From: an uncultured SAR86 cluster bacterium
Lineage (GTDB): Bacteria; Pseudomonadota; Gammaproteobacteria; Magnimaribacterales; D2472
Direction of reading: 5' to 3'
Assembly (NCBI GenBank): GCA_902608115.1
Contig: CACLMT010000007.1
Location: 1 to 64,000, forward strand
DNA length: 64,000 bases
Shown here: positions 13,574-31,530 of the stretch, one piece after another
Layout of the letters: each line of letters starts with the position of its first letter
Numbering within the stretch: the stretch's first letter is position 1
Made by a program: the position numbers and the translations under genes
The notes under the pieces: model-generated
What the model was told of the DNA's origin: nothing
The model's database searches: none
What the model saw: the letters and a program-made list of their open reading frames with translations, nothing else

Positions 13574-13575
13574 TT

Positions 13576-14448: not shown

Positions 14449-14460
14449 AGCGCGAGATCT

Positions 14461-15522
14461 ATTATTAACAAATTAACTCAAATTTTAGGCTGTCAATATC
14501 CCGTAATTCAAACAGCTATGGGTTGGGTTGCAACCCCTGAATTGGTTGCAGCGTCCTGTAATGCAGGGGCTTTTGGGTTTCTTGCTCTTGCAACAGCTGG
14601 TCCTGATGAAGCAATTGAGATGATTGATAAAACTTTAGAGCTAACAGATAAGCCATTTGGAATAAATTTTCATATGTTTCAACCTGGCGCTGAACAAATT
14701 GTTGAAGCTGTTATTAGTAAAAATATCAAAGCAGTCAGTTATTCACGTTCACCTACAGCTGATTTTATTTCAAAGTTTAAGAAAAATGGTGTTATATGTA
14801 TTCCAACCGTAGGGGCTTTAAAACATGCTTTAAAAGCTGTAGATTTAGGAGCTGATGCATTGGTGATTCAAGGTTCTGAGGGTGGAGGTCATACTGGATC
14901 CACTCCAACCACCCTTTTATTAAGTTCAGTTCTCCAACAAGTTGAGGTTCCTGTAATAGCTGCTGGAGGTTTTAGAGATGGTGCTGGTTTGGCAGCTGCA
15001 TTAGCTTGGGGAGCTGCTGGGATTGCTATGGGTACTAGATTTATGATGACTCAAGAAAGCCCAGTACCTCAAGTAACAAAAGATGCATACCTTTCTGCAA
15101 AAATTGAAGAAATTAAAATAACTAAAAAATTTGATGGCTTACCTCATAGATTAATTTTTAATAAATATATTCAAAAAATTGATCGTTCAAATCCCTTAAG
15201 CCTTTTATTGATTTCATTATCTTCGGCTTGGAGGTATAAACAATTAACCGAATCATCATTTAAGGATTTATTAAAAGCTTTTTTTGCAATGCTAAGAGGT
15301 GATGATCTCACAATTTCTCAATCAATAATGTCTGCAAACAGCCCAGCGATTATTCAAAAAGCAATGGTTGAAGGTTTTCCTAATGAGGGGGCTATGCCTT
15401 CAGGTCAAGTAGCTGGGATAATTAATAATATTCCTACTTGTAGTGAATTAATAATGCAGATTATGAGAGAATTTGAACTTTCATATACAAGATTTAAGGA
15501 AATAGGAGAAGCAGAATCATGA
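14461..15522 (+). CDS. ipdC: IpdC-like flavin oxidoreductase (nitronate monooxygenase family), apparent AUU start
   Basis: The TIM-barrel FMN protein has VIQGSEGGGHTG and VIAAGGFRDGAGLAAALAWG with GTRFMMTQES, matching the NMO/2-nitropropane dioxygenase family and specifically mycobacterial IpdC, which acts on ring-D intermediates of HIP catabolism. The first ATG is at 14518, but in-frame sequence upstream reads NKLTQILGCQYPVIQTAMGW, the conserved N-terminal FMN-site strand, and must be translated. Between the preceding stop (14446-14448) and 14518 no ATG, GTG or TTG exists in frame; the best-placed codon is ATT at 14461, giving 353 residues. Start is therefore inferred as AUU, unless a base error hides an ATG. 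It overlaps echA20 by four bases. Confidence 0.82.
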   Translation: MINKLTQILGCQYPVIQTAMGWVATPELVAASCNAGAFGFLALATAGPDEAIEMIDKTLELTDKPFGINFHMFQPGAEQIVEAVISKNIKAVSYSRSPTADFISKFKKNGVICIPTVGALKHALKAVDLGADALVIQGSEGGGHTGSTPTTLLLSSVLQQVEVPVIAAGGFRDGAGLAAALAWGAAGIAMGTRFMMTQESPVPQVTKDAYLSAKIEEIKITKKFDGLPHRLIFNKYIQKIDRSNPLSLLLISLSSAWRYKQLTESSFKDLLKAFFAMLRGDDLTISQSIMSANSPAIIQKAMVEGFPNEGAMPSGQVAGIINNIPTCSELIMQIMREFELSYTRFKEIGEAES

Positions 15523-16280
15523 GCGTAAATACTTCTATCAATAATGGAATTGCTGAAATAGTTTTAGACTGCCCTCCAGTTAACGCATTAGGTTCTCAGG
15601 AATGGCTAGATTTAGCATTTAATATTGATAATCTTTCTTATAATGATGAGGTTCGTGCAATCATTATCAAGGCTAATGGAAAAGGTTTCTGTGCTGGAGT
15701 TGATATTAAAGAGCTACAGTCAGATCCAACAAAAATCCATCAAGTGAATGATGGTTGTTGGAAAACTGCAAGAGCTATTCATGTTTGTAATATTCCAGTG
15801 ATTGCTGCTTGCCATGGTTTTGTTTTGGGAGGTGGAATTTTGATAGCAGGTGCTTCAGATATAGTTCTCTCAACAGAAGATGCTTATTTTGGGTTACCTG
15901 AAATTGATCGAGGCGCATTAGGTGGCGGGGCTCATTTAAGTCGTTTATTCCCTTTGCAGGCAGTTCGAAAAATGATGCTAACTGGTAAACCTATTTCTGC
16001 TACAAGAGCTTTTGAATATGGGTCTATAGAATCTTTACATAAGGATAAAACCAGTCTTGATAAAGCCGCCATGGAAGTAGCTGAAGATATAGCAACCAAG
16101 AGTCCATTAGCTATTAAATTAGCAAAAAAAGCTTTAAATCAAATTGAGAATAGCGATGTAGATAAGAACTATAAATCTGAACAAAAATTTACTTTAGAAT
16201 TATATAAGTCAAAAGATTCCCAAGAAGCAAGAGATGCATTTGTTGAAAAAAGAGACGCTAATTTTAAAGATGCAGATTAA
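15519..16280 (+). CDS. echA20: Crotonase EchA20 (steroid ring-D hydrolase)
   Basis: The 253-residue protein shows NGIAEIVLDCPPVNALGSQEW, KGFCAGVDIKELQ, GFVLGGGILIAGASDIVLS and FGLPEIDRGALGGGAHLSRLF, and ends with EQKFTLELYKSKDSQEARDAF. These follow mycobacterial EchA20 along its whole length, including the PPVNA start and the ERGALG-type active-site segment. EchA20 hydrolyses ring D of the HIEC-CoA intermediate (a C-C bond hydrolysis by a crotonase) to give COCHEA-CoA for IpdAB. It starts with ATGA overlapping the ipdC stop, and its end overlaps ipdE1. Confidence 0.9.
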   Translation: MSVNTSINNGIAEIVLDCPPVNALGSQEWLDLAFNIDNLSYNDEVRAIIIKANGKGFCAGVDIKELQSDPTKIHQVNDGCWKTARAIHVCNIPVIAACHGFVLGGGILIAGASDIVLSTEDAYFGLPEIDRGALGGGAHLSRLFPLQAVRKMMLTGKPISATRAFEYGSIESLHKDKTSLDKAAMEVAEDIATKSPLAIKLAKKALNQIENSDVDKNYKSEQKFTLELYKSKDSQEARDAFVEKRDANFKDAD

Positions 16281-17421
16281 GTTCACTGAAGCTCAAGAAA
16301 AATTTAGAAATGAAGTTCGTTTGTGGCTTCAAGACAACCTTCCCAAAAAACCTCTTCAGTCCTTGGATACACAGGAAGGATTTGAGCTGCATAGAGAATG
16401 GGAGAGAACTTTAGATTCAGGTAATTGGTCAATGGTGACATGGCCAAAGGAATACGGAGGAAGAGGGTTAAATCTTATTGAATGGTTAATATTTGAAGAA
16501 GAGTATTATCGCGCAGATGCGCCCACTCGGGTTAATCAAAATGGTGTTTTTTTACTTGGTCCAACTTTAATGGAGTTTGGCACTGATCAACAAAAAAATA
16601 AGTTTTTAAAGGCTATGGCATCAGGTGATCATATTTGGGCCCAAGGCTGGTCTGAGCCTGGCGCTGGAAGTGATATGGCAGCAATTAGATCTACAGCAGT
16701 TCATGAAGACGGGTTCTTTACAATTAATGGCCAAAAAACATGGTCATCTAGAGCTTCTTATGCTGATTGGATGTTTGGATTATTCAGAAGTGATTTATCT
16801 TCAGAGAGGCATAAAGGCTTATCTTTCATATTAACTCCTTTAGATCTTCCTGGTATTACAGTCCGACCAATTCCTCAGCTTGATGGTGAACCTGGTTTTG
16901 CAGAAATTTACTTTGATGATGTAAAGGTGCCTGTGGAGAATTTAATTGGTAAAGAAGGAGATGGTTGGAAAATTGCTATGGCAACAGCTGGGTTTGAAAG
17001 AGGTCTAATGTTAAGAAGCCCGGCTAGATTCCAACAAACTGCAGCTAAGCTTTTAGCTTTATATTTAGAAAATAAATCAGAATGTTCACCTGCTATGCAG
17101 TCAAAGATAGTTGATGCATGGTCTAAATCAGAGTCTTATGCTTTAAGTATTTACCAAACAGCATCTCATTTAATGGCAGGTGGATCAATTGGATCAGAAT
17201 CAAGCTTAGGAAAAATCTTTTGGTCTGAACTTGATTATATGATGCATGAAACAGCTTTAAAGATTCTTGGAGCCAGCGCTGAACTAGTCGATGAGGAAAA
17301 ACATAATGGCGCTAAATGGATTAAAGGTTTTATGTTTTCTTATGCTGGCCCCATTTATGCAGGTACCAATGAAATTCAAAAGAATATTATTGCTGAGAGG
17401 TTATTAGGATTACCAAGGTAA
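16270..17421 (+). CDS. ipdE1: Acyl-CoA dehydrogenase, large subunit of an IpdE1/E2-type pair
   Basis: I chose the ATG at 16270 (MQIKFTEAQEKFRNEVRLWL), overlapping the echA20 stop by 11 bases; an upstream ATG at 16234 only adds antisense-like residues. At 383 residues it has the ACAD blocks WPKEYGGRGLNLIEWLIFEEEY, QGWSEPGAGSDMA, NGQKTWSSRA and the C-terminal IYAGTNEIQKNIIAERLLGLPR. The residue before GTNEI, which is the catalytic Glu in classical medium-chain enzymes, is Ala, as expected where the base is supplied by the partner subunit. RADAPTRVNQNGVFLLGPTL resembles mycobacterial IpdE1 (FadE30). It likely forms a heterotetramer with the next gene product. Confidence 0.85.
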   Translation: MQIKFTEAQEKFRNEVRLWLQDNLPKKPLQSLDTQEGFELHREWERTLDSGNWSMVTWPKEYGGRGLNLIEWLIFEEEYYRADAPTRVNQNGVFLLGPTLMEFGTDQQKNKFLKAMASGDHIWAQGWSEPGAGSDMAAIRSTAVHEDGFFTINGQKTWSSRASYADWMFGLFRSDLSSERHKGLSFILTPLDLPGITVRPIPQLDGEPGFAEIYFDDVKVPVENLIGKEGDGWKIAMATAGFERGLMLRSPARFQQTAAKLLALYLENKSECSPAMQSKIVDAWSKSESYALSIYQTASHLMAGGSIGSESSLGKIFWSELDYMMHETALKILGASAELVDEEKHNGAKWIKGFMFSYAGPIYAGTNEIQKNIIAERLLGLPR

Positions 17422-17424
17422 ATT

Positions 17425-18462
17425 ATGAACTTTGTATTTACTGATGAACAACTTCAATTTAAAGAGACTATAAAAAGCTTTCTAGCTCAAGAATGTACCC
17501 CAGAGTCTATAAGGTTAGGATGGAAAGAAAATAGCCCATTTAACCAAAAAAGATGGGATGATTTAATATCTTTGGGTGTTATTGGTTCAAACCTTTCAGA
17601 GGAAGATGGTGGTTTAGGAGTTGATCAGGTAGCTTTAACATTAATGATTGAAGAAATGGGATATTCAGGTCTGCCTGAACCGGTTGCTGAGCAGAATTTT
17701 TTAATAAATGACTTATTAGATATTTTTCCTAAGGATATCAAAGGAGCTCTTATTGATAAATTTGATTGTGGGTCAAAATATATTGCTGTAGCTCATTCAC
17801 AAAACCCTCATCCATTGTTTGTGAATCAATCAAACGGTTTGATCCTTTTGGATGATAATTCCTGCCATTTTATAAATAAAGATGACTTGAAATTTAAAGA
17901 GCTTAAATCAAACGATCCCTCTAGATCTTTGTCTAAAATTCTTTCAATTAAAAATTCAATTGCTTCTTCTGATAATTTTGAAGTTTTGAATCAAGCTATG
18001 GCTTCAAGGGGCTCATTACTTAGTTCAGCATTATTGCTTGGCTTGGCTCAGAAAATGCTAGATTTAAGCTCTTCATATGTTTTAGATAGAAACCAATTTG
18101 GTAAGCCCATAGGATCATTTCAAGCTGTTAAACATATGCTTGCAGATATCGCAGTTGCTATAGAGTTTGCTAGACCAGCGGTTTATAGATCCGCATACTC
18201 TCTTAATGAAAACAACCCAAAGTCTTTTCTTCATTGTGCTCATGCAAAATATATGAGTATTAAAGCAGCTGAATTGGCATGCAGAAATAGCATTCAATCT
18301 CATGGAGCTATGGGCTACACATGGGAAATGGATCTTCATATTTTTATGAGAAAAGCCTGGTCTTTAATAGCTTGTTGGGGTAATGATGATAGCCAACAAG
18401 ATATAATTTTCAATACACTTAAATCATCCAAGGATGAAATTGGAGTTTTGTACACTTTTTAG
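17425..18462 (+). CDS. ipdE2: Acyl-CoA dehydrogenase, small subunit of an IpdE1/E2-type pair
   Basis: This 345-residue ACAD starts three bases after the large subunit. Blocks seen: MNFVFTDEQLQFKETIKSFL, LSEEDGGLGVDQVALTLMIEE, DRNQFGKPIGSFQAVKHMLAD (FAD/nucleotide region) and SHGAMGYTWEMDLHIFMRKAW. The shorter length and weak middle (beta) domain are typical of the second member of steroid-type alpha2beta2 dehydrogenases such as IpdE2 (FadE33). The pair would introduce a double bond into a HIP-derived CoA thioester. The subfamily is inferred from operon context; other FadE numbers are possible. Confidence 0.82.
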   Translation: MNFVFTDEQLQFKETIKSFLAQECTPESIRLGWKENSPFNQKRWDDLISLGVIGSNLSEEDGGLGVDQVALTLMIEEMGYSGLPEPVAEQNFLINDLLDIFPKDIKGALIDKFDCGSKYIAVAHSQNPHPLFVNQSNGLILLDDNSCHFINKDDLKFKELKSNDPSRSLSKILSIKNSIASSDNFEVLNQAMASRGSLLSSALLLGLAQKMLDLSSSYVLDRNQFGKPIGSFQAVKHMLADIAVAIEFARPAVYRSAYSLNENNPKSFLHCAHAKYMSIKAAELACRNSIQSHGAMGYTWEMDLHIFMRKAWSLIACWGNDDSQQDIIFNTLKSSKDEIGVLYTF

Positions 18463-18474
18463 AGGGAAATAATA

Positions 18475-19629
18475 ATGCAAGATGCATATATAGTTAGCGC
18501 TTTGCGAACACCAATTGGAAAAAAGAAAGGTTCTTTATCAGAGGTGCATCCAGCAGATTTAGGTGCTTCAGTTTTATCTGAAACCTTTGAAAAGATTGAT
18601 ATAGATCCGGCTTTAGTTGAGGATGTTATTTTTGGATGCGTTGATACGGTTGGACCTCAAGCAGGCGATATAGCTAGAACATGTTGGCTTGCTGCGGGTT
18701 TACCTGAACATGTTCCGGGTACAACAGTTGATCGTCAATGCGGCTCATCTCAGCAGGCCGTCCATTTCGCAACTCAAGCAGTTATGTCTGGAACATCTGA
18801 TGTTGTTGTTGCTGGAGGTGTTCAGAATATGAATATGGTTCCTATTTCTTATGCGATGCTGGCAGGGCAATCCTTGGGTTTTAAAGATCCATTTTCTGGA
18901 TCTGATGGATGGGTTAATCGGTATGGAACACAAGAAGTAAGTCAATTTAATTCTGCTCAGATGATTGCTGAAAAATGGGATATTTCTAGAGAAGAGATGG
19001 AGATATTTGCATTTGATAGTCATCAAAAAGCAATACAAGCAATAGAGTTAGGAAGATTTAAGGATGAAATTATATCGGTTGGTGATTTTCATGTTGATGA
19101 GACCCCTAGAGCAGAAACTTCTTTAGAAAAAATGGCTTTATTAAACCCATTAATCGAGGGGCATCGAATTACAGCAGCTATTTCATCTCAAAATGCTGAT
19201 GCTTCTTCGGCTATTTTAATAGTTTCAGAAAAAATTCTTAAAGAGTTTAATTTAACCCCTTTGGTTAGAGTTGCGCATATCAGCGTAAGAGCTGATGATC
19301 CTATCTGGATGTTAACAGCTCCAATCCCTGCTACTGAGTTTGCTGTTAAAAAATCAGGTATCAAACTTGAAGATATTGGTTTGGTAGAAATTAATGAAGC
19401 TTTTGCTTCAGTCCCTATGGCTTGGCAAAAAGAAACTGGATATCCACTTGAACAAATTAATATCAATGGAGGTGCAATATCGCTTGGGCATCCTTTGGGT
19501 GCAACTGGTGCAAGGTTAATGACAACCCTTATTCATTCAATGAAAAGAGATAACATTAAATATGGACTTCAGACAATGTGTGAAGGTGGGGGACAAGCTA
19601 ACGTTACTATTTTGGAGAATTGTTTATGA
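18475..19629 (+). CDS. fadA6: Acetyl-CoA acyltransferase (thiolase), FadA6-like
   Basis: The 384-residue thiolase has nucleophile Cys89 in TTVDRQCGSSQQAVH, the NEAFA motif (VEINEAFASVPMAW), the histidine loop GGAISLGHPLGATGAR and the second catalytic cysteine in MCEGGGQAN. The length and the DRQCGSSQQA form fit the steroid thiolases (FadA5/FadA6). Placed with the Ipd genes, it most likely thiolyses the linear dioxo-dioyl-CoA made by IpdAB. SD AGGGAAAT lies just ahead of the ATG. The last four bases overlap ipdF (ATGA), implying coupled translation. Confidence 0.88.
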   Translation: MQDAYIVSALRTPIGKKKGSLSEVHPADLGASVLSETFEKIDIDPALVEDVIFGCVDTVGPQAGDIARTCWLAAGLPEHVPGTTVDRQCGSSQQAVHFATQAVMSGTSDVVVAGGVQNMNMVPISYAMLAGQSLGFKDPFSGSDGWVNRYGTQEVSQFNSAQMIAEKWDISREEMEIFAFDSHQKAIQAIELGRFKDEIISVGDFHVDETPRAETSLEKMALLNPLIEGHRITAAISSQNADASSAILIVSEKILKEFNLTPLVRVAHISVRADDPIWMLTAPIPATEFAVKKSGIKLEDIGLVEINEAFASVPMAWQKETGYPLEQININGGAISLGHPLGATGARLMTTLIHSMKRDNIKYGLQTMCEGGGQANVTILENCL

Positions 19630-20408
19630 CAAAATTAATGAACCCTAAATACCCAGAAGGGAGAAATTTATTTAAAGATCAGAATATTTTATTAACTGCT
19701 GCTGCAGGTGCTGGAATAGGTTTTGCAACTGCGAAACGTTTTTTAGAAGAGGGATCTAATATTTTTATTTCTGATATGAATGAAGGAAGGCTTAATCAAG
19801 CTATGGATAAACTTAAGAAATTAGGTTTGGGAGAAGTAGATGGTTGTATATGTAATGTAACTAATGATTCTGATATAGATGATATGTTTACAGCTGCTAT
19901 TAATAAGTTTGGCTCTATCCATTCAGTAATAAACAATGCAGGGCTAGGTGGCGAATCAAAATTAGAAGATATGACCAATGATGATTGGAATTTGGTTATG
20001 GATGTAACCTTGAATGGTGCTATGAAAATTATGCGTGCTGCTATACCTGTACTTAGAAGTACTCAAGGAACAATAGTGAACAATGCTTCAGTATTAGGTT
20101 GGAGGGCTCAATCTGGTCAATCTCATTATGCTGCAGCAAAAGCTGGAGTTATGGCCTTAACTCGATGCGTTGCGTTAGAAACAGTTGAAGATGGGATTAG
20201 AATTAATGCTGTTGCACCAAGCCTGGCTATAAATCCACATTTAGTCAAAACAAGCTCTGATGAGCTAATTGATTCGCTTTCTTCAAAAGAAGCTTTTGGA
20301 AGGGGTGCAGAGCCATGGGAAGTTGCAAATGTTATCTTGTTTTTAGCTTCGGATCTTTCTTCTTATATGACCGGTGAAGTTATTTCAGTTTCATCTCAAC
20401 AAGCATAA
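19626..20408 (+). CDS. ipdF: Short-chain dehydrogenase IpdF (5-hydroxy-HIP-CoA dehydrogenase type)
   Basis: The start is the ATG at 19626 overlapping the thiolase stop; the ATG at 19620 lies inside fadA6 and adds only two residues. The 260-residue SDR has the cofactor loop LTAAAGAGIGFATAKRF, NNAGLGG, active-site NNASVLGWRAQSGQSHYAAAK (Ser, Tyr, Lys) and the C-terminal SSYMTGEVISVSSQQA. The unusual TAAAG.GIG loop and the NNASVLGWRAQ.SQSHYAAAKAGVMALTRC-like region match mycobacterial IpdF almost residue for residue. It acts on hydroxy/oxo HIP-CoA interconversion during ring-D side-chain removal. Confidence 0.9.
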   Translation: MTKLMNPKYPEGRNLFKDQNILLTAAAGAGIGFATAKRFLEEGSNIFISDMNEGRLNQAMDKLKKLGLGEVDGCICNVTNDSDIDDMFTAAINKFGSIHSVINNAGLGGESKLEDMTNDDWNLVMDVTLNGAMKIMRAAIPVLRSTQGTIVNNASVLGWRAQSGQSHYAAAKAGVMALTRCVALETVEDGIRINAVAPSLAINPHLVKTSSDELIDSLSSKEAFGRGAEPWEVANVILFLASDLSSYMTGEVISVSSQQA

Positions 20409-21101
20409 GTGGAAAAAATTGTTTATCAGGTTTGGAAACAAGATTCTGATTCTTTAGAAGAATTTAAAAATTTTCTTCTTATTGATTTACCTAATACTTT
20501 AAAATCATCTGTAACTGAGTTGCAAATTAATATTGCTGATGATGATGTGTCTGATGCATCTGGATTAATTCAATCTAATTACTCCCCCTCACCAAACGCA
20601 ATAATTTTTTTAAAAATTCCAAGTTTTTATTTCTTTGAGAATGATTTTTTAGATTTTTTTCAAAAAGTTAAGAAAATTGAGGGCTTCATTGTGAGCGAGT
20701 CTATTGTTTTAGAAGATGAGAAGAAGAATAAATTAGGAGAGAGAACGGAGGGGTTTTCGCAAATTGTATTTTTAGAGAAACCTGAAAATATGAATAAACA
20801 TGAATGGTTTGAGCATTGGACCCATTATCATACAAAAATAGCAATCGAGACACAGTCAAACTTTATATATGTTCAAAACACAATTGTGAGACCTTTACAA
20901 AATACTTCAGAAAATTTTATCGCCATTATTGAAGAATGTTTTCCACATGATGCTATGTCTGATCCAGCAGTTTTTTATAACGCAGCTAACAATCCAGATT
21001 TATTATTAAAGAATACTCAAATAATGATGGATAGCTGTACTAAGTTTATTGATTTTACTAAAATTGAAGTAATCCCTACGAGTCGCTATAGAATAATTTA
21101 A
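20409..21101 (+). CDS. EthD-domain protein of unknown function in steroid operon
   Basis: The GTG start at 20409 directly follows the ipdF stop. This 230-residue protein appears to hold two ferredoxin-like halves; the second has the EthD-type core NKHEWFEHWTHYHTKIAIE followed by FIYVQNTIVRPL. EthD-like proteins are small dimeric alpha/beta barrels; some assist P450 systems or act on polyketide and steroid-like rings, but most lack a defined reaction. The operon position, just before an SDR and a P450, suggests a role in early steroid oxidation; this is inference. Confidence 0.65.
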   Translation: MEKIVYQVWKQDSDSLEEFKNFLLIDLPNTLKSSVTELQINIADDDVSDASGLIQSNYSPSPNAIIFLKIPSFYFFENDFLDFFQKVKKIEGFIVSESIVLEDEKKNKLGERTEGFSQIVFLEKPENMNKHEWFEHWTHYHTKIAIETQSNFIYVQNTIVRPLQNTSENFIAIIEECFPHDAMSDPAVFYNAANNPDLLLKNTQIMMDSCTKFIDFTKIEVIPTSRYRII

Positions 21102-21118
21102 TATACAAGGAGTAAATT

Positions 21119-21892
21119 TTGACAGATATAAAAGTTGCATTAGTTACAGGGGCCGCAAGTGGCATGGGTAAAATTTCTACAAAAAGACTAGCAGCTGATG
21201 GAATCCATGTTGCTGCGGTTGATGTTAATGAAGAGGGTTTAAGTGAACTTAAGCAAGAATCTAATAATATTTCAGTATTTCCATGTGATTTATCTGATAC
21301 AAAAGCCGTTCAAGAAATGGTTCGACAGGTTCAAGCCGAAGTTGGATTTATTGATCGAGTAACAAATGCTGGAGCTATTATGCCTTTTGGAAAAGTAGCA
21401 GATCTTTCAGCGGATTCAATAAATCAATTAATGAGAATTAATTATGAGGGAACAGTAAATATTACTACTAGTGTATTGCCGTCGATGCTCGAAAGAAACT
21501 CCGGTCAAATTATTCTATTTGGATCAATTGCTGGGACATGCCCAGAAGTAAATATGTCTGCTTATTGCGCCTCTAAAGCTGCAGTAAATATGTATGGAGA
21601 AATATTAGCTAAAGAATTAGAGGAAACGAACATTCGAGTATTACTTGTTTGTCCTGCGATTACTGATACTCCATTAATGAGATTTGTTGATGAGACAGAT
21701 GCTCCTAAATCCATTAAGAAATCCGTGCAAAAAGGCGTTTTAAATGACCCCGAAGATGTAGTGACAGCAATAGAGAATGACTTATTAACGGATAAAGTAA
21801 TTTGTTACCCAACACCAGATGCTTTGTATGCAATTCGTATAAGAAGATTTTTTCCTAATTATTGGTGGAAATTAATTGCAAAGAACTCATAA
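21119..21892 (+). CDS. Short-chain dehydrogenase/reductase, possible hydroxysteroid dehydrogenase
   Basis: A TTG start at 21119 is fixed by a strong SD (AAGGAG, 21107-21112). The 257-residue SDR shows VTGAASGMGKISTKRL (cofactor), VTNAGA, SIAGTCPEVNMSAYCASKAA (Tyr-x3-Lys) and a long basic, aromatic C-terminus (IRIRRFFPNYWWKLI) that may touch membrane. DVNEEG after the second strand suggests an NAD(H) preference because an acidic residue is present. It could oxidise a 3-, 17- or other ring hydroxyl before nucleus breakdown; the specific substrate is not readable. Next to the P450. Confidence 0.82.
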   Translation: MTDIKVALVTGAASGMGKISTKRLAADGIHVAAVDVNEEGLSELKQESNNISVFPCDLSDTKAVQEMVRQVQAEVGFIDRVTNAGAIMPFGKVADLSADSINQLMRINYEGTVNITTSVLPSMLERNSGQIILFGSIAGTCPEVNMSAYCASKAAVNMYGEILAKELEETNIRVLLVCPAITDTPLMRFVDETDAPKSIKKSVQKGVLNDPEDVVTAIENDLLTDKVICYPTPDALYAIRIRRFFPNYWWKLIAKNS

Positions 21893-21900
21893 TATGATCT

Positions 21901-23250
21901 ATGACATCAGAATATTTATTAGCTCCTGATAATAGAGATCTTTCAAGGTTTCCTGGGGAATATGGTTGGCCATTTCTTGGTAAGACTCTTGAATTAGTTA
22001 AAGATACTTTGGGAACGTGTAACAAGCATTATGAGAGATATGGTCCTGTATCTCGTTTGGATATGGTTCGAAACCAGAGAGTGTTAATGTGTCTGGGCCC
22101 AGAATTTAATGAAGCTGCATTATTTGACCCTAAGGGTAATTTTAGTTCTGTTGGGGGTTATGCTAATTCTTTAGGTATTTTGTACCCTGATGGCATGCTT
22201 CTTAGAGATGGTAAAAAACATAAGAAAACAAGACGAGCTTCTCAGCCGGCTTTCAAAACAGATGCATTGAAAACTTATGTTGAAATGTTAATCCCAATTC
22301 AAGAAAGAAGGATTCAAGCATTACCCATTAATGAAGAATTTATTTTTTATGATAATATTCGAGAAACTCTTATGGATGTAGCTGCAAGAGTTTTTCTAGG
22401 TTTGGATGAGACAAGTCCAGAGGCTCAAAGGCTTAATGATGTCTTTGAAAGAATAAATAATGGCTTGATTACACCTTTACCTTATAACATTCCATTTAGT
22501 ACTTTTAATAGAGCTCTAAACGCCAGGGAAGAGCTTAGTAAATTTTTTAAATCGAATATATCGCTTAGAAGAGGGACAAATGCAGATGATATGTTTACTC
22601 GTTATTGCAACGCGGTAGATGAGGATGGTGAATATCTCGATGAAGAGGATATTGATGGGCATATGGCGTTTTTATTATTTGCTGCTTTTGATACAACAAC
22701 CAGCGCTTTAACTAACATTCTTTACTATTTAGGTAAAAATCCAGAATGGCAGGAGAAAGTTCGAAACGAAATTTTTAGTATTAAAAATGAAATGCCAACT
22801 TTTGATGATATGTCTGCAATGACTCTTACTGAATATGTTTTTCAAGAAACATTAAGATTTTATCCTTCGGTGATGATATTGAATAGACGCACAACAAGAG
22901 ATGTTCATATTAATGGTTATGATATACCAGCTCATACAATGATTATGTTAAGCCCACCTTTTACTCATAGAATGGAGGAATGGTGGACAAATCCATTAGA
23001 GTTTGACCCAATGAGGTTTTCTCCCGAAAGAGCTGAGGATAAAAGACATGGATTTAACTATATACCTTTTGGAGGTGGTGCACACAAATGCATAGGAATG
23101 CATTTTGCCATGATGAATGCAAAATTATACTTATTTAGACTTTTGAAAAACTATAAGGTTAATCTTAGACCCAATTATGATTCAGCATTTATGCATGTTC
23201 ATCTTCCTAGGCCAATTGATGGTTTGCCTATAACACTTTCAAAAATCTAA
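21901..23250 (+). CDS. Cytochrome P450
   Basis: The 449-residue P450 has I-helix AAFDTTTS (261-268), ExxR as ETLR (316-319), and heme loop FGGGAHKCIGMHFA with the proximal Cys397. No signal anchor is seen, so it is soluble. The heme loop and the helix-C WR/KK region (GKKHKKTRRASQPAF) resemble the CYP51/CYP120-like branch rather than CYP125/CYP142, which carry a different loop. No ferredoxin or reductase gene is next to it. In this operon it may hydroxylate the steroid nucleus or a modified side chain. Assignment to a CYP family needs a tree. Confidence 0.88.
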   Translation: MTSEYLLAPDNRDLSRFPGEYGWPFLGKTLELVKDTLGTCNKHYERYGPVSRLDMVRNQRVLMCLGPEFNEAALFDPKGNFSSVGGYANSLGILYPDGMLLRDGKKHKKTRRASQPAFKTDALKTYVEMLIPIQERRIQALPINEEFIFYDNIRETLMDVAARVFLGLDETSPEAQRLNDVFERINNGLITPLPYNIPFSTFNRALNAREELSKFFKSNISLRRGTNADDMFTRYCNAVDEDGEYLDEEDIDGHMAFLLFAAFDTTTSALTNILYYLGKNPEWQEKVRNEIFSIKNEMPTFDDMSAMTLTEYVFQETLRFYPSVMILNRRTTRDVHINGYDIPAHTMIMLSPPFTHRMEEWWTNPLEFDPMRFSPERAEDKRHGFNYIPFGGGAHKCIGMHFAMMNAKLYLFRLLKNYKVNLRPNYDSAFMHVHLPRPIDGLPITLSKI

Positions 23251-23254
23251 CTTT

Positions 23255-24064
23255 ATGATCCCAGAAGGTAAATATGTTGATGTCGCAGATAGTTTTCGTT
23301 TTCATTACTATGATGAAGGAGAAGGGGATGTAGTTGTTTTTCTCCATGGCAGTGGAACAGGGGCATCAGGGCATACAAATTTTAAAAATAATTTTAGCGC
23401 ATTAAGAGATGCAGGTTTTCGTGTTATATTGCCAGATCTTCCTGGCTATGGTTTTTCTAGTAAACCCGATGATGTCATTTATTCACTTGATTATTTTAAT
23501 GAAAAAATAATTCAATTTTTGGATTTATTGGGAATCAATAAATTTTCGCTTATAGGAAATAGTTTGGGTGGCGCCTTATCTATAGGCTTGGGTCTAAAAT
23601 ACTCTGATAGAGTTCAAAAATTAATTTTAATGGCCCCTGGCGGAATAGAAGAGCGTAAGGCGTATGACTCAATGCCAGGGATTAAAAAATTACTTACAGA
23701 TTTTCTTGGTGGGGACATGGATCAATCTAAGATTGAAGGCCTCCTTGAGCTTTTTCCTTTTGATGCTTCAATTGTGAATGAAGAAATGATTCAGGAAAGA
23801 ATGCAAATTTTACCTCTTATGAATACTCAAGTTATGGCAACAATGGATATTCCAAATATGGAAAATGACCTCCACCTTTTAAATCAACCTACATTGGCAT
23901 TCTGGGGCGTGAATGACCAATTTATTCCTGTGTCAGGTGCAATGAAGATAGGGAATGGGTGCCCAAATGCTCAGGTTATGCTTTTTAGTCAGTGCGGCCA
24001 TTGGGTGATGATTGAACGTGAAAAAATATTTAATGAAGCATGCATTAATTTTTTATTAAGCTAG
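23255..24064 (+). CDS. hsaD: Meta-cleavage product hydrolase HsaD
   Basis: This 269-residue alpha/beta hydrolase has oxyanion-region VFLHGSGTGASGHTNF, nucleophile elbow GNSLGG (Ser103), Asp221 (WGVNDQF) and His249 (CGHWVMIE), the catalytic triad of C-C bond hydrolases (MhpC/BphD/HsaD). The S-G-T-G-A-S-G stretch matches HsaD. HsaD cleaves 4,9-DSHA to 2-hydroxyhexa-2,4-dienoate and the HIP propionate carrying rings C and D. It is the next step after HsaC, and is followed three bases later by hsaE. Confidence 0.9.
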   Translation: MIPEGKYVDVADSFRFHYYDEGEGDVVVFLHGSGTGASGHTNFKNNFSALRDAGFRVILPDLPGYGFSSKPDDVIYSLDYFNEKIIQFLDLLGINKFSLIGNSLGGALSIGLGLKYSDRVQKLILMAPGGIEERKAYDSMPGIKKLLTDFLGGDMDQSKIEGLLELFPFDASIVNEEMIQERMQILPLMNTQVMATMDIPNMENDLHLLNQPTLAFWGVNDQFIPVSGAMKIGNGCPNAQVMLFSQCGHWVMIEREKIFNEACINFLLS

Positions 24065-24067
24065 CTT

Positions 24068-24853
24068 ATGAACATTCAAACTGTGAATGAAATAGCGTCT
24101 GAGCTTTTCTTGGCTTTAAGAAAACAAGAAAAAATTAAACCTTTGACTGATAGATATCCAGATATTGATATCAACGACGCATACCAAATCTCTAGGAAAT
24201 TTCTTTCATTAAGAGAAGATGAGGGAGAAGAAATTGTCGGTAAAAAAATTGGTGTAACAAGCAAAGTTGTTCAAGAAATGCTTGGGGTGAATCAACCAGA
24301 TTTTGGTTTTTTGACTAATGCAATGCAGATAAAAAATAAATCTAACTTTACGATAGCGGATTCTTTAATTCAGCCAAGGGCAGAAGCAGAGATTGCTTTT
24401 ATTTTAAATGAAGATTTATATGGTCCAGGTGTTACTAAAGATGATGTTATTTCATCTACTGCCAAAATTCTTCCTTGTTTTGAAATTGTGGATTCACGTA
24501 TAGATGATTGGCAAATTAAAATTCAAGACACAGTGGCGGACAATGCTTCTTGTGGAATATTTATATTAGGTGAGGGTGAATGCTCATCAGAGAAGTTTGC
24601 AATGGACGAATTGGAAGTTGAGGTTAGAAAGAATGGAGAATTCCTTTCAGAAGGCAAGGGTTCGGCAGTTCAAGGCCATCCAGCCGAAGCTGTTGCATGG
24701 TTAGCTAATACACTTGGCGAGTATGATATCCCACTTCTAAAAAATGAGATTATTTTGTCTGGTTCTTTGGTGCCTCTTGAACCAGCATTGCCAGGCGATA
24801 AATTTTTTATGGAACTTAAAGGAGTGGGCACTTGTGAGGTAGACTTTATTTAA
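24068..24853 (+). CDS. hsaE: 2-Hydroxypentadienoate/hexadienoate hydratase HsaE
   Basis: At 261 residues it fits the MhpD/HsaE hydratases of the FAH superfamily. Visible blocks: [43 protein letters not shown] (metal-binding glutamates), and [25 protein letters not shown]. It hydrates 2-hydroxyhexa-2,4-dienoate, released by HsaD, to 4-hydroxy-2-oxohexanoate, feeding HsaF and HsaG encoded next. Only small gaps separate these three genes. Confidence 0.9.
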
Positions 24854-24855
24854 TT

Positions 24856-25779
24856 ATGAAAAAAATTAATTGTGCAATTATTGGCTCTGGGAATATTGGA
24901 ACGGATTTAATGTTAAAGATAATTAACACCTCAAAGAGTTTGAATTTAAATGGAATGATTGGAATTGATGTTGAATCTGAAGGGCTCGCAATGGCAAAAT
25001 CTATGAAGGTTCCAATTTCAGATTCTGGTTTAGAAGGTTTTATATCAATGTCAGAATATCAGGATACTGAAATTTTCTTTGATGCTACATCTGCTGGCGC
25101 ACATCAAGCTCATCATGATCAGGTTACAAAAGATCAAAAACAAATGATTGATTTAACTCCTGCAGCAATTGGTCCATATTGTGTTCCAGTGGTTAATTTA
25201 TCTGAGCATCTAACAGAAAAAAATGTAAATTTAGTTACTTGTGGAGGTCAGGCCACTATTCCAATGGTAGCAGCAGTTAATGAAGTTTCTAAAGTTAGAT
25301 ATGCAGAGATTGTGGCATCAGTTTCATCTAGATCGGCTGGACCAGGCACTCGTGCAAATATCGATGAATTTACTCAAACAACTGCGTTGGGTTTAGAAAA
25401 GGTAGGTGGAGCAGATAAGGCTAAAGCAATTATTATTTTAAATCCTGCTGATCCACCACTATTGATGAGGAACACTGTGTTTACTTTATGCGATCCCATC
25501 GACCAGGCTCTTATTAAAGACAGTATTGAAACAATGGTTGCTAGAGTACAAGCATATGTTCCTGGGTATCGTCTTAAACAAGAAGTTCAGTTTGAGCGAT
25601 TTGGTTCAAACAATCCTTGTAGAATTCCTGGTTATGGAGAGTTTGAGGGTTTAAAAGCTTCAATATTTCTTGAGGTTGAAGGAGCCGGCCATTACCTACC
25701 TACTTATGCAGGAAATCTTGATATTATGACTTCTGCCGCATTGGGGACAGGTGAGGAGCTTGTAAGATTAAATAAATGA
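24856..25779 (+). CDS. hsaG: Acylating acetaldehyde/propionaldehyde dehydrogenase HsaG
   Basis: The 307-residue protein has the NAD motif [17 protein letters not shown] at the N-terminus and catalytic Cys129 in [16 protein letters not shown], and ends with [18 protein letters not shown], as in the MhpF/DmpF/HsaG family. It converts propionaldehyde (from the steroid A ring) to propionyl-CoA with NAD+ and CoA, receiving the aldehyde through a channel from the partner aldolase. The stop overlaps the hsaF start by four bases (ATGA), the usual coupling for this complex. Confidence 0.92.
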
Positions 25780-26789
25780 AAAAAAAATTATACATACAAG
25801 ATGTAACCCTGAGAGATGGAATGCATGCAATAAGGCATCAATATGGTTTGGATCATGTTGTGGAGATTGCCAAGGCGCTTGATGAAGCAAAAGTAGATGC
25901 AATTGAAGTAGCTCATGGAGATGGTTTGTCTGGCTCTTCTTTTAATTATGGCTTTGGAGCACATACTGATAAAGAGTGGATAGCTAGTGTTGCAGAGAAT
26001 TTGCAATTTTCTAAATTAGCAACATTAATTCTTCCAGGCATTGCTATTAAAGAAGACTTAAAATGGGCATGGGATCTAGGAGTGAGATCAGTTAGGGTTG
26101 CAACTCATTGTACGGAAGCTGATGTTTCTAAGCAGCATATTGAATATGCAAGAGAACTAGGAATGGATACCGTAGGTTTTTTAATGATGTCTCATATGAA
26201 TGATCCGGTTAATTTGGCCAATCAAGCTAAACTAATGGAATCTTATGGTGCTAAATGTGTTTATGTAGTCGATTCAGGCGGAGCCTTAAGCATGGAGGAT
26301 GTTGCGGATAGGTTCAAAGCTTTCAAAGATATTTTGGATTCAAAAACTCAAACCGGAATGCATGCTCATCATAATTTATCTTTAGGAGTAGCAAATTCTA
26401 TTGTTGCAGTTGAAAATGGAGCTGATCGAATTGATGCAAGTCTTGCAGGGATGGGTGCCGGTGCTGGCAATGCTCCTTTAGAAGTTTTTATAGCTGCAAT
26501 AGATAGATTAGGCTGGAAGCATGGCACCGATTTATTTAAGTTGATGGATGCTGCAGAAGAGCTTGTTCGACCGCTACAAGACAGACCCGTAAGAGTTGAT
26601 AGAGAGACTTTAACTCTTGGATATGCTGGAGTTTATTCATCTTTTTTAAGACATGCTGAATCTGTTGCAGAAAATTATAATCTTGATACTCGAGAAATTT
26701 TAGTTGAACTTGGAAAGAGGAAGATGATTGGTGGTCAAGAAGATATGATAGTTGATGTCGCATTAGATTTATTAAAGAAGAAATCATAA
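25776..26789 (+). CDS. hsaF: 4-Hydroxy-2-oxovalerate/oxohexanoate aldolase HsaF
   Basis: The 337-residue aldolase starts [18 protein letters not shown] (catalytic Arg and metal Asp of the HMGL-like barrel) and has [30 protein letters not shown] and [15 protein letters not shown], which supplies the metal histidines. The C-terminal helical communication domain ([20 protein letters not shown]) binds the dehydrogenase. It splits 4-hydroxy-2-oxohexanoate into pyruvate and propionaldehyde. It completes the A-ring branch. Confidence 0.92.
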
Positions 26790-26792
26790 CTT

Positions 26793-27662
26793 ATGAATAT
26801 TGGAATGACCCTGCCTGTGATGGAACCAGGGTTAACCAGGAAAGATCTTGAGACATGGACAAGTCTTATTGATACAGGCCCTTGGTCGCATATAGCGCTA
26901 GGTGAAAGAATTGTTTTTCCAAATCCTGAATTTATATCTACTTTGAGTGCAGTCGCCGCTTGGACACAGAATGTTGAAATTATTGCAACAGTGTCAGTTT
27001 TATCTATGCATGACCCTATTTTGTGCGCTAAACAATTTGCAACAATTGATTTGCTATCAGAGGGGAGATTTACCTTGGGAGTTGGGGTTGGTGGTCGTGA
27101 AGAAGATTACAAAGCAATTGGAGCAAATTGGTCAAAGAGAAGATGGAAAGTAATTGCAGAAAATGTTAAAGCCATGCAATCTATTTGGAAACATGAGCAT
27201 GATCTTAAGATTGGTCCCGATATTTCTAATGGTGGTCCACAAATATTGGCAGGAGCTATTGGGCCAAGGGCTATGGAGATGGCTGCAGAATTTGCCGATG
27301 GATTAGCTGGATTTTCTTTTAATGCGGATATTGAAGAAATTAAAGATTCATTTGATCGAGTTAATTTGGCTTTCAAGGCTAAGAATAAATCTCCGCGTTT
27401 AGTAACAAGTTTTTGGTTTGGGCTGGGAGATAATGGAAGAGAGATTGTTGAAAAACATTTAACTAGATATTTAGGTTGGATGGGGGATGATATTGCAGAA
27501 TCTTTAGCAAAAACAGCTGGAATAGCTGGAAATGAAAAGAGTTTAAAAGATCTACTTGTTAAGATTAAAGATCTTGGAGCTGATGATGTATTACTTGTTC
27601 CTACTAGCGCTGATATAGAACAACTTAAAAGGGCTACAGAAGTTGCATCCTTATTTGCTTAA
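26793..27662 (+). CDS. LLM-class (luciferase-like) flavin oxidoreductase
   Basis: This 289-residue TIM-barrel protein begins MNIGMTLPVMEPGLT and has the bacterial-luciferase/F420 pattern: VEIIATVSVLSMHDP, CAKQFATIDLLSEGRFTLGVGVGGREEDYKAIG, then GPQILAGAIGPRAMEMAAEFADG. Members use FMN or F420 for hydride transfer or monooxygenation. It sits between hsaF and the Rieske genes, inside the steroid operon. The reaction is unknown; it could replace a missing oxidoreductase such as HsaA, or act on a different ring. No F420-synthesis genes are in view. Confidence 0.82.
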   Translation: MNIGMTLPVMEPGLTRKDLETWTSLIDTGPWSHIALGERIVFPNPEFISTLSAVAAWTQNVEIIATVSVLSMHDPILCAKQFATIDLLSEGRFTLGVGVGGREEDYKAIGANWSKRRWKVIAENVKAMQSIWKHEHDLKIGPDISNGGPQILAGAIGPRAMEMAAEFADGLAGFSFNADIEEIKDSFDRVNLAFKAKNKSPRLVTSFWFGLGDNGREIVEKHLTRYLGWMGDDIAESLAKTAGIAGNEKSLKDLLVKIKDLGADDVLLVPTSADIEQLKRATEVASLFA

Positions 27663-27700
27663 GGTAAAAGCCAATATTATGATTGTTAAAGGAGAAAAAA

Positions 27701-28141
27701 ATGACCAACGATCAACTTATTGCACCTGAATTGCCTGAGCAATTAGATCCAAGTGTTGTAAATAAACCTTCTGGATGGTATGAGGTTTTATCTAGCGATC
27801 AATTAGAGAGTAAAAAAGCTGTTCAAATTGAAGATTTTCCAACTCAATTGGTGGCGTGGAGAGGAGAGGGCAATAAAGTTTGTGCTTTGGATTTATATTG
27901 TAAGCATATGGGAGCAGCACTTTCTTGCGGGGAGGTTGATGGTAATAGTATTAGATGCCCTTTTCATGCTTGGAGTTGGAATAAAGATGGGGATTGTGAT
28001 GACATACCCTACGCAAAAAAGATACCTGATAAAGCTAAAATAAGAAGCTGGGCTACTGATGAAAAAGATGGTTTAATTTATGTGTGGTTTGATAGGAATG
28101 GGAAAAAACCAGATCCAGAAGGATCAAGGTTTAATAAATAG
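27701..28141 (+). CDS. Stand-alone Rieske [2Fe-2S] protein, KshA-like cluster domain
   Basis: The start at 27701 is set by a strong SD (AAAGGAG, 27688-27694). The 146-residue protein is a single Rieske domain with C67-x-H69 (LYCKHMGAAL) and C86-x2-H89 (RCPFHAWSW), followed by GDCDDIPYAKKIP and IRSWATDEKDGLIYVWFD. This run matches the KshA Rieske domain (CRHMGG...CPFHDWRW...VPYA...RSW...G.LFVWHDHEG) rather than a free ferredoxin. It ends just where KshA would pass into the catalytic domain. With the next gene it appears to make a two-subunit 3-ketosteroid 9alpha-hydroxylase. The partner reductase is not in view. Confidence 0.88.
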   Translation: MTNDQLIAPELPEQLDPSVVNKPSGWYEVLSSDQLESKKAVQIEDFPTQLVAWRGEGNKVCALDLYCKHMGAALSCGEVDGNSIRCPFHAWSWNKDGDCDDIPYAKKIPDKAKIRSWATDEKDGLIYVWFDRNGKKPDPEGSRFNK

Positions 28142-28152
28142 GAGAATAGATT

Positions 28153-28995
28153 ATGAGCGGTTTACCAGATAGATTTCCTAGAGGCTGGTTTGTTCTAGGT
28201 CATCAAAGAGATTTTCCTATAGGCGAAGAAAAAATTATTTATGGGTTTAATCAAAAAATCTTAGTTGAAAGAACTGAAGAAGATGTCAAAGTTGATGTAG
28301 GCTCTGGGGCAGTTTGGCCGGTGTTAGAGATTAATCAAATGCTAATGGTCTGGCATGATCATGAAAATAAGGAACCGGATTTCTATCCTGAAAAAATTGA
28401 TGCTTGTTATTCAGATGAATGGTCTGATTACGGCATGGCAAGTTTTTTAGTGAAGAATAATTGTAGAGAATTAATTGATAATATGGCTGATAAAGGTCAT
28501 TTTGGGCCTGTCCACCAAGCACCTTTTGAAGGTTTTTGGAATGAGGCTAAAGACCATACTTACACTCAAGAGATGACTGCAGATAGCCCAATACTTGGAA
28601 GAGATCTTTTTTCAAGAGCAAAATATGAAGGTCCTGCTTATATGACCACATATATGAGTGCGGTTCATGATGGTGCGAAGGTTGAAAGTAGGCTCTTAGT
28701 GAGTCATGTCCCATTAACCCTTACTTCTTTTATGATTAATTTTGGAGTTATGGTTAAGAAAGCTCCTGGTATGTCACAAGAAGAAGAGGATACTTTTGTA
28801 CAAGGTTATGTAGATGCAAATAATTTTGCATTTGCACAAGATGTTGCCATTTGGGAAAACAAAATTTATATTCCTGATCCTCTAGTTTGTGATGGAGATG
28901 GTCCATTGCACAAATTAAGGAAGTGGTATGGACAATTTTTAGTCGATAGAGCTGATGTACCAAAAGGTTTAGATATGGAAATGAGAGAATTTTAA
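28153..28995 (+). CDS. Rieske-less catalytic subunit of KshA-type oxygenase
   Basis: The 280-residue protein has its own SD (AGGAG) after the Rieske gene. Residues 8-40 (FPRGWFVLGHQRDFPIG, then YGFNQKILVE) match the KshA N-terminus and residues 63-72 (MLMVWHDHEN) the KshA segment after the cluster, but the roughly 50-residue cluster-binding part between them is missing: no C-x-H or C-x2-H remains. The mononuclear iron site is intact: N110-x2-D113-x2-H116-x4-H121 and D230 (FAQDVAIWENK). It therefore needs electrons from a separate Rieske protein, evidently the gene just upstream. The C-terminus is about 40-50 residues shorter than KshA. Confidence 0.85.
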   Translation: MSGLPDRFPRGWFVLGHQRDFPIGEEKIIYGFNQKILVERTEEDVKVDVGSGAVWPVLEINQMLMVWHDHENKEPDFYPEKIDACYSDEWSDYGMASFLVKNNCRELIDNMADKGHFGPVHQAPFEGFWNEAKDHTYTQEMTADSPILGRDLFSRAKYEGPAYMTTYMSAVHDGAKVESRLLVSHVPLTLTSFMINFGVMVKKAPGMSQEEEDTFVQGYVDANNFAFAQDVAIWENKIYIPDPLVCDGDGPLHKLRKWYGQFLVDRADVPKGLDMEMREF

Positions 28996-29023
28996 TATCT
29001 AACTAAATATAAAATTCTTCAAG

Positions 29024-30556
29024 ATGGATAACCATTCTTTTACAATCCCTTCGCTTGTTAATGCTCAAGCAAGAGCTTTTGGAAATAAATTAGCTCTTAT
29101 TAGCAATCAAAACTCCTTTACTTATTTTCAAATTGATGAACTCTCATCCATCATTGCATCAAATTTAATTTCATTAGGCGTAGAGAAAGGGGATAGGGTT
29201 GCTATTTGGGCGCCCAACATGAATGAGTGGGTCTTGTCTGCTATAGGAATTCATAAGGCTGGTGGCGTATTAGTTCCTATAAATACTAGAATGAAAGGCA
29301 AGGAAGCGGCTTATATATTAAATAATTCAAAAGCTAAAATTCTTTTCAGCGTAAAAGAATTTTTAGATATAGATTACTTTTCATTAATTAATGAAGAAGA
29401 TTTGCCACATCTTCAAATTAAAGTTGTTCTAGATGAAGTATTGATAGAATCTGGTCAAGTTCCTTTTAATTCTTTATTACAAAAAGGAGATCAAACCTTA
29501 CCGGAAATAATCCCATCAGATCTTGCTGACATAATTTTTACCTCTGGAACTACCGGAAAACCTAAAGGTGTTATGACAACGCACGAACAAAACATAAAAG
29601 TTTTTGAGTATTGGTCAACGTATGTTGGCTTAAATAAGGATGATAGATATTTAATAGTTAACCCGTTTTTTCACACGTTTGGTTATAAGGCAGGTTGGCT
29701 TGCATCCATTATGAGAGGTGTAACAATTTATCCATGCCCGGTCTTTGATGCAGAGCAGATTATTAAAACGATTGATCAGCATAAAATATCAATGTTGCCA
29801 GGCCCACCAACTTTATATCAATCTATTTTAGCCAGTAATCAGTTAAAACAATTTGATATTTCATCACTTAGGTTGGGAGTTACAGGAGCAGCATCAATAC
29901 CGGTTCAATTAATCAAAGACATGAAAGAGCAACTTGGTTTTGAAGTTATTATTACCGCTTACGGTTTAACTGAAAGTACTGGAGTGGTAACAATGTGCTC
30001 TCCTGACGATGATTATGAAACTATAGCTACTACTTCAGGTCGCGCAATTGAGGGTGTAGAAATTAAATGTGTAGATGCAGTTAATAAAATAGTTGATCCT
30101 GGAGAGCCAGGTGAAATTTTGGTTAGAGGTTATAACGTGACACAAGGGTATATAGATAATCCTGAGGCTACAAGAGAGGCAATAGATACTGATGGTTGGT
30201 TACATACTGGTGACATAGGAATTCTTGATGAGAAGGGCTATATTAAAATTACAGATAGAAGCAAGGATATGTTTATTGTTGGCGGTTTTAATGTATATCC
30301 AGCTGAAATAGAAAATATTCTTTGTGATCATCCGGCTATTTCACAAGCTGCTGTTATTGGTGTTTCAGATGATCGGATGGGAGAAGTCGCAAAAGCATTT
30401 ATTATCTTAAAACCTGATCAAGAGACTTCGATAGAGGAATTAATTATCTGGTCAAGAGACAATATGGCTAATTACAAAGTTCCAAGAGAAATAGAATTTG
30501 TAGAAGAGTTACCAACAAATGCTGCAGGTAAAGTCATGAAATATTTATTGAAATAG
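29024..30556 (+). CDS. fadD3: HIP-CoA ligase FadD3
   Basis: This 510-residue AMP-forming acyl-CoA synthetase has P-loop FTSGTTGKPKGVMTTH, the FadD3-like segment NPFFHTFGYKAGWLASIMRG, PGPPTLYQSILAS, TAYGLTESTGVVTMCSPDDD, the GWLHTGDIG hinge region, KDMFIVGGFNVYPAEIE and the C-terminal catalytic Lys in NAAGKVMK. These segments follow mycobacterial FadD3, which attaches CoA to the HIP propionate left after HsaD and commits rings C/D to degradation. It lies directly downstream of the Rieske pair in the same operon. Confidence 0.9.
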   Translation: MDNHSFTIPSLVNAQARAFGNKLALISNQNSFTYFQIDELSSIIASNLISLGVEKGDRVAIWAPNMNEWVLSAIGIHKAGGVLVPINTRMKGKEAAYILNNSKAKILFSVKEFLDIDYFSLINEEDLPHLQIKVVLDEVLIESGQVPFNSLLQKGDQTLPEIIPSDLADIIFTSGTTGKPKGVMTTHEQNIKVFEYWSTYVGLNKDDRYLIVNPFFHTFGYKAGWLASIMRGVTIYPCPVFDAEQIIKTIDQHKISMLPGPPTLYQSILASNQLKQFDISSLRLGVTGAASIPVQLIKDMKEQLGFEVIITAYGLTESTGVVTMCSPDDDYETIATTSGRAIEGVEIKCVDAVNKIVDPGEPGEILVRGYNVTQGYIDNPEATREAIDTDGWLHTGDIGILDEKGYIKITDRSKDMFIVGGFNVYPAEIENILCDHPAISQAAVIGVSDDRMGEVAKAFIILKPDQETSIEELIIWSRDNMANYKVPREIEFVEELPTNAAGKVMKYLLK

Positions 30557-30561
30557 AATAC

Positions 30562-31530
30562 ATGAAAGTTTTAATTTCTGAAGCAACTGATAAATTTTAT
30601 CAATCTGATTTAATTGCATTTGATCAAGCCATAGAAATTTACTCAATTAACCCCAGTGATTCTAAAAGCCCTTCTTGGGAATTTGTTCCTGAATGCGATG
30701 CATTTTTTATGAATTATGAATTCATGTTTGCAGTGAGAGATAATCCTGAATTATTTGAACCATTATTAAGTCTATCTAAACGTATGAAGTTTATTCAAAG
30801 TGGATTTGCTGGCATGGATGCACCAATTCTTCAGTCAATATTGAGTGATACAGATGCCCTGATAGCTAATGCTGCTAGTATCTATGGTATTCCAATTGCC
30901 CATTATGTTTTTTCTCAAATCTTAAGATGGAATAAAAGAATTGATCAGCACATTAAATTGCAAGAGCTTAAGGAGTGGTCTCCATATGGAGGAGATGGAG
31001 AATTAACTGATAAAACTTTGGTTATCTTAGGTTATGGAGGAATTGGTAAAGAAATTGCAAAGTTGGGTAAGGCTTTTGGGATGAAAGTAATTGGAATCAA
31101 GCGTACTCCTACAGATTGTAGTTATGCAGATCAAGTTTTAGGATTAGATGACTTTGATGATTTATTACCTTTAACAGATTATTTGGTGCTAGCTCTTCCT
31201 GATAATGAGCAAACAAGAAATGTAATAAATAAGGAAATTCTTAATAAAATATCAAATTCAGCCATGTTAATTAATGTGGGTCGAGGGAGTGCAATCAATG
31301 AAGAAGATTTAGTAGACGCATTGAATAGTGAACAAATTGCTGTAGCAGCATTAGATACAACCAAGGTTGAGCCCTTGGAAAGCTCTTCTTCTCTATGGAC
31401 AGCAAAGAATTGTTTTATTTCAGCGCATGATTCTGCTCATTCACTTTTATCCATCCCTAGAGCTTTTAATTTATTTTTAGAGAATCTTAAAAATATTAAA
31501 GAAAATAAAGCAATTAAGAATCTTTGTTAG
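30562..31530 (+). CDS. D-isomer-specific 2-hydroxyacid dehydrogenase-like protein
   Basis: The 322-residue protein has the Rossmann motif LVILGYGGIGKEIAKLGKAFG (about residues 153-173), LALPDNEQTRNVIN, INVGRGSAINEEDLVDAL with the catalytic Arg region, and a final SAHDSAHS in place of the classical catalytic His-Ser/Ala-Ala. The family reduces 2-oxoacids with NAD(P)H. It is the last gene of the steroid run and could process a pathway oxoacid, or be unrelated. Its end overlaps the convergent serine hydrolase gene by 17 bases. Confidence 0.83.
   Translation: MKVLISEATDKFYQSDLIAFDQAIEIYSINPSDSKSPSWEFVPECDAFFMNYEFMFAVRDNPELFEPLLSLSKRMKFIQSGFAGMDAPILQSILSDTDALIANAASIYGIPIAHYVFSQILRWNKRIDQHIKLQELKEWSPYGGDGELTDKTLVILGYGGIGKEIAKLGKAFGMKVIGIKRTPTDCSYADQVLGLDDFDDLLPLTDYLVLALPDNEQTRNVINKEILNKISNSAMLINVGRGSAINEEDLVDALNSEQIAVAALDTTKVEPLESSSSLWTAKNCFISAHDSAHSLLSIPRAFNLFLENLKNIKENKAIKNLC

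Follow-up and report, generated by a model that had tools for sequence, protein, structure and literature searches.

The Rieske oxygenase KshA, an iron enzyme by which the steroid ring system is opened and with structures from M. tuberculosis (2zyl, 4qck) and R. rhodochrous (4qdc, 4qdf), carries its cluster and its mononuclear iron on one polypeptide, which is reduced by KshB. In the KshA trimer the iron of each subunit receives its electrons, via Asp178, from the Rieske cluster of a neighboring subunit (PMC4064121). For NdmA/B, distances of 12.1 Å between subunits versus 44.7 Å within one subunit were reported (PMC10380055). Since electrons cross between subunits, the cluster and the iron of the same chain are not direct partners, and the two sites of one chain do not work together directly in Rieske oxygenases. 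If these parts are located on separate proteins, the electron-transfer interface can be tested directly by titration, mixed mutants and dissociation of the cluster subunit.

The principle of a split-off cluster has one distant documented precedent, the caffeine N7-demethylase of Pseudomonas putida CBB5, in which the catalytic subunit NdmC has no cluster and obtains it from another protein, NdmD. NdmC/NdmD/NdmE was presented as the first Rieske oxygenase with a split-off Rieske domain, in this case fused to the reductase (PMC4408171), and a 3:3:3 complex has been reported (PMC10380055). Small soluble Rieske proteins that feed an oxygenase are also known as Rieske ferredoxins (CarAc, BphA3 type), but the oxygenases they serve have a cluster of their own. 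In the open-access literature, which leaves out most subscription journals, we found neither a split KshA nor a small Rieske protein acting as separate subunit of an oxygenase that lacks a cluster. The initial annotation of the locus likewise knew of no described KshA of this form, and NdmC/NdmD separates the cluster differently. Surveys of SAR86 genomes reported kshA, kstD, hsaA, hsaC, hsaD and fadD3 in part of one SAR86 family (PMC11582366, PMC4810484), and no mention of a two-gene form of kshA was found in the texts of these two surveys.

Here we analyzed a stretch of 64,000 nucleotides (the window) from an uncultured SAR86 cluster bacterium (GCA_902608115.1, contig CACLMT010000007.1), which contains two adjacent genes, termed R and C. 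The pair is like KshA with respect to its clade, cluster ligands, bridging aspartate, 2-His-1-Asp triad, five of eight steroid-contact residues, the predicted fold of C and its location in a steroid-ring operon; it is unlike KshA in having cluster and iron on two proteins. In contrast to NdmD, where the Rieske domain is fused to a reductase and the GST-like NdmE is needed, R is a separate 146-aa protein, and the pair belongs to the KshA family and apparently arose by duplication and complementary loss. We consider it probable that R and C are the two subunits of a single Rieske oxygenase, a 3-ketosteroid 9α-hydroxylase, the complex, the electron path and the activity being inferred. The pair is thus the likely 9α-hydroxylase of a very abundant ocean lineage, in genomes in which searches for full-length KshA would overlook it or score it wrongly, and its identification bears on how marine steroid degradation is judged.

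Two Genes Encode the Rieske Domain and the Catalytic Domain

The features of the pair in the window are as follows.

27701..28141, + strand: R, putative Rieske subunit consisting of a KshA-type Rieske domain only, 146 aa (ATG at 27701, stop at 28141)
27899..27907, + strand: cluster ligands C67-x-H69 of R, from the sequence; invariant among relatives (apart from one record with N bases)
27956..27967, + strand: cluster ligands C86-x2-H89 of R, from the sequence; invariant among relatives
28153..28995, + strand: C, putative catalytic subunit, a KshA without the cluster-binding subdomain, 280 aa (ATG at 28153, stop at 28995)
28159..28296, + strand: vestigial Rieske base strands of C, residues 3-48, based on the alignment to KshA 17-61, homology to R and pLDDT
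28297..28314, + strand: site of the missing cluster-binding subdomain of C (about 50 residues absent), based on alignments
28489..28515, + strand: bridging aspartate D113 and iron ligands H116 and H121 of C, corresponding to KshA D178, H181 and H186
28840..28842, + strand: third iron ligand D230 of C, corresponding to KshA D304

R is matched by the Pfam Rieske family (E = 5e-21), its top match in the PDB is KshA (4qdc, E = 6e-31), and it ends where the catalytic domain of KshA starts. H69 and C86 are separated by 16 residues, meeting the Rieske motif CxH-x16-CxxH, and this spacing is that of group I Rieske oxygenases (PMC4064121). C is matched by Pfam KshA_C (E = 1.6e-57). Its residues 3-46 align to KshA 17-61 and the alignment restarts at residues 53-61 (KshA 116-123), such that a stretch of about 50 residues containing both cluster motifs is absent. 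The strand with WHDHE is retained, as are the bridging aspartate and the 2-His-1-Asp site (D113, H116, H121 and D230). Both gene descriptions given in the initial annotation, a 146-aa gene with a full KshA-like cluster domain and no catalytic domain, and a 280-aa gene keeping the N-terminal strands, WHDHE and the iron site without the cluster stretch, are therefore borne out by the domain matches and the alignment to KshA.

The AlphaFold model of C has a mean pLDDT of 83.6, with the vestigial Rieske base strands mostly above 90, and residues 2-280 of the model superimpose on residues 16-354 of KshA 4qck (Z 30.2, 277 residues, 2.4 Å). Judged from this predicted structure, C is a KshA minus its cluster-binding subdomain. 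The two genes are separated by 11 bp and located in different frames, and a Shine-Dalgarno sequence (AGGAG) precedes C.

The Gene Pair Is Conserved in Two Families of the Order

Recurrence of the pair had been proposed as a check of the initial annotation, and the C form was found in 28 of the 203 genomes of the order (SAR86), spread over two families. Identity of C is 76-85% in the SAR86 genera g1, g6 and g10 and 54-55% in two genomes of the sister family. Wherever a checked locus includes the upstream side, be it from SAR86 or from the sister family, R directly precedes C, with an intergenic distance of 2-22 bp or an overlap of 17 bp. The same two-gene arrangement is seen at each relative locus that is fully covered and is therefore not due to chance. 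All relatives with coverage of this part of the gene lack the cluster stretch in C. Relatives with the cluster loops in the catalytic gene would have refuted the split; in none of the relatives of the pair clade do cluster and catalytic domain reside on one polypeptide, and two genes are present throughout. No relatives were found on viral contigs.

For an assembly or sequencing artefact, a frameshift or deletion, nothing was found in favor: independent single-cell genomes (many of them), MAGs and the complete genome CP097973 (G088) agree on the arrangement, each gene has its own start, with a Shine-Dalgarno sequence ahead of C at most relative loci, and C possesses N-terminal strands of its own, which cannot arise by a frameshift. 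Such an artefact can practically be ruled out. The start codon of R is TTG at 16 of 25 loci and ATG at the other 9.

In comparisons of close relatives R has dN/dS values of 0.02-0.09 and C of 0.01-0.05, and between the two members of the sister family the values are 0.29 and 0.13, respectively; R evolves faster than C throughout. The Rieske ligands of R and the iron site of C are kept in all relatives. This bears on the possibility that a duplicated KshA is decaying and has left R and C as remnants, which the initial annotation had named as a refutation: a full-length KshA in the same genome, with the pair decaying. The first part was met, since this genome encodes a full-length KshA beside KstD (C8:21846-22811, 44% to C). 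The second was not, since dN/dS values of the pair in close relatives (0.01-0.09) indicate strong purifying selection, the ligands are invariant, and the pair is conserved over two families and three SAR86 genera, with 22 of the 28 pair genomes lacking a full-length KshA of the KshA-proper clade. Decaying remnants are thus highly improbable, and the pair is real, conserved and very likely a working two-subunit KshA, although its activity is inferred. A shorter R of 132 aa, altered in its last strand, is encoded in the genomes represented by L054, L056, L058, L061, L064 and L065.

Origin of the Split

Both halves branch inside KshA, as had been predicted for a split KshA: in careful trees of each half, R forms one clade (support 99/97) and C forms one clade (95/92), both within the KshA-proper clade, which also contains actinobacterial and proteobacterial KshA. 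In the AU test neither half rejected a grouping of the pair with full-length SAR86 KshA (p 0.25 and 0.44), and the trees leave the parental full-length KshA of the pair unresolved.

In a profile alignment R and the N-terminus of C match along the entire Rieske base, interrupted by a gap where the cluster subdomain is expected (hhalign probability 95). Base strands are thus present in both products, which is not expected from gene fission, and duplication with complementary loss is favored. This origin, already preferred over fission in the initial annotation, is supported as the simplest account and the better fit, as far as sequence comparison can tell. Barring a transfer of the pair between the two families of the order, the split would date back at least to their common ancestor.

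A 217-aa frame in G162 gave the impression of a second split gene; this candidate was rejected, as the end of contig C9 (position 136741) truncates what is a KshA of the full-length type.

Genomic Context and Inferred Substrate

R and C are located near the end of an operon for steroid-ring degradation.

11041..31530, + strand: steroid-ring degradation operon containing R and C

Its first part encodes HsaC, an IpdA/B-like CoA transferase, EchA20-like, IpdC-like and ECH proteins, two ACADs and a FadA6-like thiolase; SDRs, a P450, HsaD, HsaE, HsaG, HsaF and a luciferase-like protein follow in the middle part, and R, C, a FadD3-like ligase and a 2-hydroxyacid dehydrogenase form the end. For several of these genes the name is based on gene order or on a family match that falls short of the curated cut-off. 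The order HsaG-HsaF-(luciferase-like)-R-C-FadD3 is conserved in CP097973 and, without the luciferase-like gene, in G155 of the sister family; G162 has these genes as well, distributed over two contigs. On a Streptomyces plasmid (Streptomyces sp. NBC_00841, L116) a full-length KshA directly follows HsaG-HsaF, the slot occupied here by R and C. Across the 203 genomes, the pair and HsaC occur together in 27, HsaC alone in 8, the pair alone in one and neither in 167 (Fisher 2e-25), a p value that overstates independence since the genomes are related and several are incomplete.

Further observations concern single neighboring genes. The luciferase-like gene between HsaF and R (26793-27662 in the window) belongs to SAR86 family f1 and is not found at that place in the sister family. 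A full-length KshA adjoins HsaC in L095 (G362) and lies near HsaF on a plasmid of Caballeronia sp. SBC2 (L115).

In the 9,10-seco pathway, 9α-hydroxylation is the step that depends on a Rieske enzyme. Of 28 genomes searched for KstD, 27 contain it, and HsaA was found in G087, G088 and the present genome, which leaves 9α-hydroxylation as the step for a Rieske enzyme. Replacement of HsaA by the pair was considered as well and rejected, since HsaA is present in these three genomes.

At the eight steroid-contact positions of KshA (V176, Q204, Y232, M238, N240, N257, F301 and W308) C has MQYMTVFW; five of eight residues are identical, and V176, N240 and N257 are changed. These eight residues, the triad and the bridging aspartate are invariant in the pair clade, and the full-length proteins L066 and L082 have the same residues. 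Two other KshA_C proteins of this genome (333 and 337 aa), distant paralogues that are also present in most pair genomes, fall outside KshA-proper and have only one and two of the eight contact residues. A full-length KshA of the KshA-proper clade is present in six pair genomes including this one, and near-complete genomes in which the pair is the sole member of KshA-proper found include G073, G087, G088 and G091.

The changed contact residues would also be compatible with a split Rieske oxygenase acting on another steroid intermediate (another ring position, a CoA-thioester, a 4-methyl or a side-chain-bearing sterol), with 9α-hydroxylation left to the full-length KshA or to the 333/337-aa paralogues. 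Both the HsaA-KshA-KstD island of this genome, with its full-length KshA, and the occurrence of two further KshA_C-family Rieske proteins here and in most pair genomes could supply such a second enzyme. We regard this as unlikely, since the full-length gene is missing from most pair genomes, the paralogues hardly keep the contact residues and lie outside KshA-proper, and the pocket of the pair matches that of its full-length KshA relatives L066 and L082. The preferred reading remains that the pair is the 9α-hydroxylase; because six pair genomes also encode a full-length KshA, the pair may act on a second or different substrate in these, the present genome included.

Two further observations were made on KshA-family genes. 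The full-length KshA of this genome is part of a second steroid island (L130; G000 contig C8, 18000-36000) with HsaA, KstD and another FAD dehydrogenase. In G073 a distant KshA_C paralogue (C4:75739-76383) contains an in-frame TAA stop and may be decaying there.

Proposed Complex of R and C

In the proposed two-subunit enzyme C would form a head-to-tail ring, with its mononuclear iron as the site at which steroid and O2 are bound. R would bind at the subunit interfaces where C misses the cluster-binding subdomain, in an inferred ratio of 3R:3C, and electrons would pass from the [2Fe-2S] cluster of R across D113 to the iron of C, as they do from the Rieske domain of the neighboring subunit in ordinary KshA. 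A model of a linked R-C chain (read-through of L040) was too poor to place R (pLDDT 52, pTM 0.36). The base strands of C may occupy the usual position of the Rieske domain and exclude docking of R exactly as in KshA; R may therefore dock on C in a new way.

Electron Supply

A KshB-type reductase (FAD_binding_6 plus plant-type Fer2) was not found in five other genomes searched: their sole FAD_binding_6 match has the size of NqrF (411-444 aa), and Fer2 matches gave no KshB. In the present draft genome one weak FAD_binding_6 match of 308 aa and no Fer2 match were obtained. Exactly one BphA4-type ferredoxin reductase is encoded in each of the six genomes searched and, with no KshB-type reductase found, it is the best candidate for the donor. 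It probably reduces R, directly or through a ferredoxin, and the reduction route of SAR86 Rieske oxygenases looks unusual.

R might also be a free Rieske ferredoxin shared by several oxygenases, with C being fed by R only transiently or by another carrier. R resembles Rieske ferredoxins in being a small protein of its own, the single BphA4-type reductase is of the kind that reduces such ferredoxins, and KshB was not found in the genomes searched. By sequence, however, R is KshA-type (the E-value against CarAc is only 1e-4, compared to 6e-31 for KshA) and branches inside KshA, it always adjoins C, and the other KshA-type oxygenases of this genome have Rieske domains of their own, making a freely shared ferredoxin unlikely. 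For R as the partner of C, a tentative possibility is that it is dissociable, taking up electrons from the BphA4-type reductase and then docking in the gap of C, whereby it would replace both KshB and the built-in Rieske domain. The gene for the BphA4-type reductase adjoins an SDR gene in L156 and L158; L154 and L155 are also among the BphA4-type loci.
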